This document shows, in pieces, positions 52,779-55,780 of a stretch of DNA of 64,000 nt. Source of the DNA: Sulfurimonas sp. HSL3-7. Lineage in GTDB: Bacteria > Campylobacterota > Campylobacteria > Campylobacterales > Sulfurimonadaceae. The first letter of the stretch is position 1. Each line of letters begins with the position of its first letter. The DNA lies in contig NZ_CP147919.1 in the NCBI RefSeq assembly GCF_039645985.1, positions 1,116,001 through 1,180,000 of the forward strand, given 5' to 3'. The position numbers were made by a program, and so were the translations under genes. Below the pieces are notes generated by a model that saw only the letters and a list, made by a program, of their open reading frames with translations, was not told where the DNA came from and made no database searches.

Positions 52779-53924
52779 TTACGCCTTTTTTAGGATCTCA
52801 GCGATGGTCTCTTTTGGGTACTGTTCAGCCATTCCCCATACCTTTGCCAGTTCACCGGCATTGTCAGCCAGGGCGTCGATGCCGTCTCTTGGAATGTCGG
52901 CATCTGCCAGGCGGACCGGCGAGCCGATCTTGGCAAACCAGGTTTCAAGCGCTTCGATACCTGCATCAGCGCTGTCGAGTCCGAAGACCTCTTTTGCAAA
53001 GCGTTCGAACTGTGTGATGTTCTGCTCTTTGTACCATTTCATCCAGGCCGGGATTACAATCGAGAGACCGGCGCCGTGAGCGACATTGTAGAGTGCGGAG
53101 AGGGAGTGCTCGATCATGTGGTTTGGAAAACTTCCGCCGGCAGTTCCGGCAGGGGTCAAGCCGTTCAGAGCCTGTGTCGCCACCCAGGCAAATTCGCCTC
53201 TGGCTTCGTAGTTGTCCGGATCTGCTAAAAGAATTTCCGTTGTTTCGATGACACTTTTGACAATGGACTCGACAAGTCTGGAGTTAAAATGCGGGTGTGT
53301 TGACGCGGTAAAGTAGACCTCAATACTGTGGGCAATGATATCGACGGCAGAGTAGGCCAGGTATTCTGGTGTTACGGTTGCCATTAAGGCCGGGTTGACG
53401 ACAGAGAGAACCGGGTTGACCAGGACGGAACCGATAGAGTACTTCTGTTTTGTCGCATCGTTCATGACCACGGAGTTACCGTTCATCTCGCTGGCCGTAG
53501 CGGCAAGTGTCATGACTGTAAAGACGGGCAGGGCTTCGGTGATCTCTGCTTTATGGATGAAAAAGTCCCAGACATCGCCGTCGTATTTGGCACCGGCGGC
53601 AATCGCCTTGGCGGAGTCGGCAACCGAACCGCCGCCGACACCGAGAACAGCCTGCAGCTTATCTGCTTTAGCGATACTGATGCCGTCATTGACCCGGCTG
53701 AGCAGCGGATTGCTGACAATGCCGTCGAGTTCGCGGTAACCGACGCCGTTTTCGTTAAGTGATTTAATGATCCGTTCATAGAGACCGCTCTTTTTAATGC
53801 TGCCTGTGCCGTAGACCAATAAGACATTTTCGATGCCGTTTTCTTTAATGTATCGGCCGATATTGTTCTCTTTGTCTTTGCCAAATTCGATCTTGGTCGG
53901 GTTGTAATAGGTAAAGTCGTGCAT
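52779..53924 (-). CDS. Iron-containing alcohol/aldehyde reductase
   Basis: 381 aa, Fe-ADH family, butanol dehydrogenase or YqhD-like. The N-terminus MHDFTYYNPTKIEFGKDKENNIG and the NADP loop GVGGGSVADSAKAIAAGA are typical. Metal ligands are in YSAVDIIAHSIEVYF and SFPNHMIEHSLSALYNVAHGAGLSIV (Asp and three His). Such enzymes reduce toxic aldehydes. First gene of the operon; AGAGGACG precedes the ATG. Confidence 0.92.
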   Translation of the reverse strand: MHDFTYYNPTKIEFGKDKENNIGRYIKENGIENVLLVYGTGSIKKSGLYERIIKSLNENGVGYRELDGIVSNPLLSRVNDGISIAKADKLQAVLGVGGGSVADSAKAIAAGAKYDGDVWDFFIHKAEITEALPVFTVMTLAATASEMNGNSVVMNDATKQKYSIGSVLVNPVLSVVNPALMATVTPEYLAYSAVDIIAHSIEVYFTASTHPHFNSRLVESIVKSVIETTEILLADPDNYEARGEFAWVATQALNGLTPAGTAGGSFPNHMIEHSLSALYNVAHGAGLSIVIPAWMKWYKEQNITQFERFAKEVFGLDSADAGIEALETWFAKIGSPVRLADADIPRDGIDALADNAGELAKVWGMAEQYPKETIAEILKKA

Positions 53925-54000: not shown

Positions 54001-54035
54001 TAATGGGAATATGTTGACTTTATGTTACAATTACA

Positions 54036-54307
54036 TATGGACACCTCTAAAGACCCTAGCAGGCTTCAGAGGGAAGAAAGAGAGATGAAATTGTGCAGAA
54101 TTTTTCTTGAGTCATAGCCGTAGCTATGAGGATAGAAAATTGTGTGCAAGATCGCTCTCTTTATCCCTCCCTTCGGGCGATAGAGAGAAATCCACACTCC
54201 GCGTTGCCTCTTTTCGTCTTAGCTATGGCTAGGGCTTCAAAGGGTCGCCTTGATTGTGAACTTCTCTCTATCGCTGAAGTCAACTAGGGTCTTTTGAGGT
54301 GCCCATA
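54036..54307. mobile_element. MITE-like palindromic element with TA flanks
   Basis: About 33 bp imperfect terminal inverted repeats (54038-54069 and 54274-54305: TGGACACCTCTAAAGACC versus the reverse complement TGGGCACCTCAAAAGACC) are bordered by TA on both sides. Inside are two long imperfect hairpins: 54070-54171 with a CATAGC/GCTATG tip, and 54177-54275 with a TAGC/GCTA tip. No ORF is present. The TA flanks recall IS630/mariner target duplications; the whole can fold into a three-armed cruciform. It ends 13 bp before hxlR. Confidence 0.75.
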
Positions 54308-54320
54308 ACTAAGGATTGTG

Positions 54321-54695
54321 ATGCATTTTATTAATGGCAAAGAATACAAGTGTTCTGTTTCGGTCACGCTCGACATCTTCAACGACCGGTGGAAACTTGC
54401 AATTATCTGGTATCTGCTCGAAGAGAACAAGCGTTTTAAAGACCTGCACAAAGATATCAGTGAAATAACGCAAAAAACATTGACGGTCAAGCTCAAAGAG
54501 CTCGAAGAGAAGAACATCATTCACAGAGAGGTATTTCCGGAAGTACCGCCGAAAGTGGTCTACTCCCTGACGCCGATCGGCAAAAAATTGAAACCGGTTC
54601 TCGAAGAGATGTACAAGTGGGGCATGGAGTACATAGAAGAGTACGGCCAGTTAAGCAGTGACAACTTTTGCGGTGTCGATATCTGCAAAAAATAG
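54321..54695 (+). CDS. HxlR-family transcriptional regulator
   Basis: 124 aa winged-helix protein, ATG 54321 after AAGGA (a GTG three bases earlier is in frame). CSVSVTLDIFNDRWKLAIIWYLLEENKRFKDLHKDI and TQKTLTVKLKELEEKNIIHREVFPEVPPKVVYSLTPIG are the HxlR domain. Cys11 lies at the site used as a thiol switch in YodB and HypR, which respond to quinones, diamide or hypochlorite. Opposite the adh-mdaB-nitroreductase operon, which makes it the likely regulator. Its own promoter must lie inside the MITE or at its end. Confidence 0.9.
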   Translation: MHFINGKEYKCSVSVTLDIFNDRWKLAIIWYLLEENKRFKDLHKDISEITQKTLTVKLKELEEKNIIHREVFPEVPPKVVYSLTPIGKKLKPVLEEMYKWGMEYIEEYGQLSSDNFCGVDICKK

Positions 54696-55708: not shown

Positions 55709-55780
55709 TTGAATTATAGGTTATAATTCTTAAAATTAGTAGGGTTCTTAAAGATGCCCTGTATTACAAAAAGGCGGGGT

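Follow-up and report, generated by a model that had tools for sequence, protein, structure and literature searches.

The palindromic unit at positions 54039-54304 of the window (the whole 64,000-nucleotide stretch of Sulfurimonas sp. HSL3-7 DNA analysed here) is almost certainly a MITE of the IS5 type. The explanation that we regard as highly probable as a whole is a non-autonomous, IS5-ended MITE distributed across a bacterial order, in which selection maintains the pairing of the fold and not its exact sequence. The features of the locus are as follows, with the basis of each assignment in brackets.

52779-53924, minus strand: iron-containing alcohol dehydrogenase gene, divergent neighbour (ORF list, domain search)
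54023-54031, plus strand: TGTTACAAT, immediately left of the element and likely to be the extended -10 of the hxlR promoter (visual reading; conserved where G003 has the empty site)
54035-54038, no strand: left copy of the 4-bp target duplication, ATAT (duplication statistics; empty site in G003)
54039-54304, plus strand: element proper, 266 bp (end-pair scan; match to covariance model R1)
54039-54067, plus strand: left terminal inverted repeat, stem strand (paired ends, alignment)
54069-54169, plus strand: hairpin arm 1, with tip CATAGCCGTAGCTATG and conserved internal loop TGAAAT/AAGAT (fold, alignment)
54169-54177, plus strand: junction segment, belonging to a conserved CCTCCC-NNN-GGGC motif (alignment)
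54176-54275, plus strand: hairpin arm 2, with tip TAGCTATGGCTA and conserved internal loop GCGTT/GCCTTG (alignment)
54276-54304, plus strand: right terminal inverted repeat, stem strand (paired ends, alignment)
54305-54308, no strand: right copy of the 4-bp target duplication, ATAA (duplication statistics; empty site in G003)
54318-54695, plus strand: hxlR-family regulator gene (HxlR domain, E 1.6e-31)

The element proper lies inside the 272 bases delimited by the initial annotation and matches covariance model R1 over its full length (265.5 bits). Its transposase-type end is formed by the first 18 bases of the left repeat, GGACACCTCTAAAGACCC (family consensus GGGCACCTCTAAAAACCC). Both inverted-repeat pairs of the palindromic, three-armed unit described in the initial annotation were recovered, one at 54031-54069/54274-54312 (39 nt, 82% complementary) and the other at 54177-54199/54252-54274, and the predicted shape of the 266 bp is the same stem with two hairpin arms. 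On the plus strand the 272 bases have a fold energy of -135.5 kcal/mol, against -78 +/- 5.3 kcal/mol for shuffled sequences (z -11.0); the minus strand gives a z of -11.3 and DNA parameters a z of -9.7, and no shuffle matched any of these folds. The capability to extrude as a cruciform is consistent with this computed fold. The tip of arm 2 resembles the reverse complement of the tip of arm 1; the AGCTATGGCTA motif is the tip of one arm, with an inverted copy at the tip of the other. As had been stated, no gene-like ORF lies inside the 266-bp element in the ORF list of the window.

A search with the 272 bp gave 14 matches in the 2.87-Mb genome, five of them full length, and dozens of copies in the genus and family. 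Derivatives in the same genome, partial or rearranged, include units of 108, 164, 212 and 362 bp bounded by the ends of the element; no plasmid or phage copies of the element were found. The multicopy state, the paired ends, the empty sites described below and the absence of an ORF all support the reading as a MITE, and the initial annotation's own counter-hypothesis, a single-copy sequence conserved at this site, failed on the copy number and on the empty site in a relative, G003. In another genome (G181) six dispersed copies (L377-L382) are 98.5-100% identical, which suggests recent movement or a burst, although the NF033581 transposase was looked for in that genome and not found. According to a simple ORF caller, none of 52 copies interrupts a long ORF, 33 lying between co-directional, 17 between divergent and two between convergent genes.

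The borders were analysed statistically in 75 end pairs from the terminal-repeat scan, a set in which some pairs are nested or of deviating size. Outside the ends, 28 of the 75 have an exact 4-bp repeat, where 2000 shuffles gave a mean of 5.5 and a maximum of 13; an exact 2-bp repeat occurs in nine, which is chance (shuffled mean 8.8), and repeats of 2, 3 or 5 bp were never above chance in these pairs. The target consensus at insertions is TWWA and AT-rich. That the exact 4-bp repeat is seen in only about a third of copies counts against our explanation. In G003 the site orthologous to the window locus lacks the element and aligns without gaps over 300 bp at 82% identity, so that the element is a precise insertion and one not common to G003; for four other copies the alignments of relatives span the junction, some with small gaps. 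The target duplication is of 4 bp and not TA. The 'TA flanks' of the initial annotation are bases of this longer duplication, ATAT/ATAA at the window locus, and its assignment to an IS630-like family does not hold: an IS630/Tc1-type MITE with TA duplication is highly improbable, since 2-bp repeats are at chance and 4-bp repeats far above it, and since the matching transposase is of the IS5 family; the AT-rich target explains why TA dinucleotides are frequent at the borders.

Ends of the same type bound complete insertion sequences. In G043 they flank a 1350-bp unit encoding a protein of 347 amino acids, with DUF772 and DDE_Tnp_1 domains, which the NF033581 model (cut-off 140) identifies as an IS5-family transposase at 266.8 bits. 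Related IS with these ends and an NF033581-type transposase are present in G044 (1270 bp, flanked by TTAA at either end) and in G007, of the same genus as the window genome (1252 bp); G036 holds a 533-bp deletion derivative with TATA on both sides, and end-matching units of 1.2-1.3 kb in other phyla have the exact 4-bp repeats TTTA, TTCA and TGTA. MITEs and IS copies therefore share a duplication length of 4 bp. The IS5-family IS are like the MITE in these duplications and in their ends of 16-18 bp, but differ in encoding a transposase and in having a core unrelated to that of the MITE. An 18-base pattern scan of named genomes detected the end in Spirochaeta, Tannerellaceae, Ruminococcus, Pseudomonas and others, on units of 1.2-1.3 kb and on MITEs of other sizes; this wide occurrence with IS5-type units indicates a widespread end type of a known transposase family. 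No literature on the end sequence was found.

A copy of NF033581 above the cut-off is present in three of 60 relatives. The transposase was not found in the window's own genome, nor in nine of the 11 other element-bearing genomes searched, so that the mobiliser is deduced from the shared ends, and the element is apparently without a cognate transposase at home. A cognate transposase in the same genome is usual for an IS5-derived MITE but not essential; its lack weakens any claim of current mobility and leaves the ancestry of the ends unaffected. In the mechanism that we propose, the element would depend on an IS5-type DDE transposase from an outside source, which would recognise its 18-bp ends and act in trans, inserting it into AT-rich, TWWA-like targets with duplication of 4 bp. 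Two solo ends in the same genome (L046 and L048) were considered as autonomous IS and rejected, as only ordinary genes adjoin them. Separately, a solo end-like sequence, GGGCATCTTTAAGAACCCTAC, is present in the window at 55739-55759 (minus strand), just upstream of a MerR-like gene at 55754; it has four mismatches to the family end and is perhaps a remnant of another copy.

The family belongs to one bacterial order, in which it appears to be old, and keeps a three-way-junction core at almost constant length. Of 299 genomes sampled from the order, 94, in 30 of 82 genera, have a match to the covariance model, and most among the matches listed are about 262-270 nt long and span the whole model; in a phylum-wide sample, all among the matches listed belong to the same order. 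A shorter relative (183 bp, 95 bits) was found in the gammaproteobacterium Thiomicrorhabdus. In an alignment of 29 oriented elements from several families (277 columns), positions that never or hardly vary are found in the tips of the arms, in the junction CCTCCC-NNN-GGGC and in the internal loop GCGTT/GCCTTG, with CTTG identical in all 29. The two tips are alike in inverted orientation in many copies, but not in all. The consensus structure has 94 base pairs, 95.5% of cells pair in it, and 74 of the 94 pairs show compensatory changes on both sides, a level of covariation reached by none of 500 shuffles and far from approached by slid structures. The conserved fold is real. Rfam holds no significant family (a sub-threshold match to mir-571, E 0.13), and no description of this element was found there or in the literature searched. 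MITEs are commonly regarded as decaying leftovers; in this one, across some ten families, the length has hardly changed and an intricate fold has persisted despite turnover of the stem sequence. Retention of the same fold while the letters change suggests that the shape itself does something.

How the pairing is kept can be read from its dependence on divergence. Among close copies stem changes are mostly one-sided and among distant copies mostly two-sided, the two-sided share of changed pairs being 11% where copies diverge by 5% and 84% where they diverge by 40%, as expected if selection removes or repairs broken pairs. An ordinary MITE whose pairing is preserved, free of selection, only because template switching during replication corrects its imperfect palindromes seems to us improbable. 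Template switching can alter both sides of a palindrome at once, and the symmetry of the strands fits it, but the predominance of one-sided changes at low divergence is opposite to rapid concerted correction, the non-complementary internal loops are conserved across families, and MITEs with the same ends elsewhere often have no palindromic core. Unstructured cores (z -1 to +0.2) are found in same-end MITEs of several other lineages and in the 108-bp derivative from the window genome, whereas structure is seen in the Thiomicrorhabdus relative and in a Ruminococcus copy of 158 bp. Two IS5-type IS show no unusual folding over their first 270 bases (z -0.9 and 0.1). A general transposase requirement for the fold was therefore rejected: the transposase seemingly does not demand it, and it is not simply needed for mobility. 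The idea that older copies fold worse was likewise discarded, as the degree of pairing in 52 copies is unrelated to whether the duplication is intact or decayed, which gives no support to selection acting through transposition.

Somewhat less improbable, though still unlikely in our estimate, is a structured RNA read from one strand, either a non-coding RNA or a leader motif, that became mobile with the terminal repeats as its vehicle. The strong covariation (74 of 94 pairs), the conserved internal-loop and junction motifs with their invariant CTTG, slower change in place at orthologous loci, and some G-U pairs almost fixed on the plus strand all speak for it. Against it, G-U cells are not commoner than A-C cells (98 vs 163) when only pairs predicted from both strands are used, nor are G-U states found in at least two genomes (20 vs 27); an earlier count of 228 G-U vs 50 A-C was discarded as biased, the structure having been derived from the plus strand. 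Insertions relative to co-directional genes are also even (16 sense, 14 antisense), and the absence of a significant Rfam family tells in the same direction. With no G-U excess and even orientation, no strand is preferred, and a one-strand RNA gene is unsupported. Under selection on pairing, the selected form would probably be a folded strand, either extruded DNA or a transcript, working in either orientation.

At three loci in one genus, orthologous copies of the element change by 0-6.4% where their 200-bp flanks change by 2.8-28.5%, that is, 2-15 times more slowly. Taken singly, nine of the ten rate comparisons reach significance, but they are not independent of one another, and coding as well as intergenic bases enter the flanks. 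The ends of these slow copies are off the consensus yet largely still paired, and one set lies directly upstream of what we take to be a sufB-like gene. Gene conversion between copies could also cause the slow change. A more specific reading, in which the folded three-armed core is itself functional, as DNA or RNA and in either orientation, and has been carried through the order by the IS5-type MITE, with some copies near genes kept by the host while their ends drifted but stayed paired, is conceivable and we hold it only tentatively. The family offers a clean natural test of whether selection on the shape of a mobile element serves the spread of the element or the host.

At the window locus the element lies between the divergent iron-containing alcohol dehydrogenase gene and hxlR, as the initial annotation stated, and the hxlR start codon follows 13 bases past it. 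The proposal that it displaced or supplied the hxlR promoter is not favoured. At the empty site in G003, TATGTTACAAT and AAGGATTGTGATG remain close together, so that the insertion more probably separates the promoter of hxlR from the ribosome-binding site; the latter and the start codon are to the right of the element. No promoter that could supply hxlR was detected in the element, and a sigma-70 scan of the locus returned no two-hexamer site. Judged from sequence, the window copy thus probably has the likely promoter on one side and the ribosome-binding site on the other, and the likeliest effect would be that hxlR is transcribed with a folded leader of about 270 nt. If so, regulators such as hxlR would receive pre-formed structured 5' leaders from the element.

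The Correia/NEMIS, ERIC, RUP and QMITE1/2 elements are small, non-coding and mostly intergenic, with terminal repeats and stable long stem-loops, and some bacterial palindromic MITEs have been proposed to affect neighbouring mRNAs (PMC2229807, PMC5896051, PMC10969869). The present element shares their size, lack of coding capacity, terminal repeats and mostly intergenic position. They differ in being mostly single long stem-loops, flanked mostly by TA or by other duplications, whereas the present element has a three-way junction, near-constant length across an order and extensive compensatory change. The CIR repeats of Caulobacter and Brucella, by their description, have two long hairpin arms, a phylogenetically conserved shape and intergenic positions (PMC2229807). 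In these respects they are like the present element, but they have a GANTC motif and no end-to-end pairing, whereas here the paired terminal repeats close the junction.

Other repeats were noted in passing. In G024, an assembly of many contigs, the family end is matched more than 60 times, in many cases no further than about 100-250 bases from where a contig stops, which suggests that a high-copy element broke the assembly. L135 (G043:C31:4482-10302) is built of at least seven tandem repeats of an 800-bp unit, each carrying MITE-like inverted-repeat pairs of 161/220 bp and a variant of the IS5-type end, GGGAACCTCTAAAAACCC. The right flank of L004 (G000:C1, about 360,320-360,520) holds a second dispersed repeat of about 60-200 bp with a terminator-like hairpin, AAAAAGCCAACTGCTTGGCTTTTTT, which has dozens of matches across genomes of the genus.
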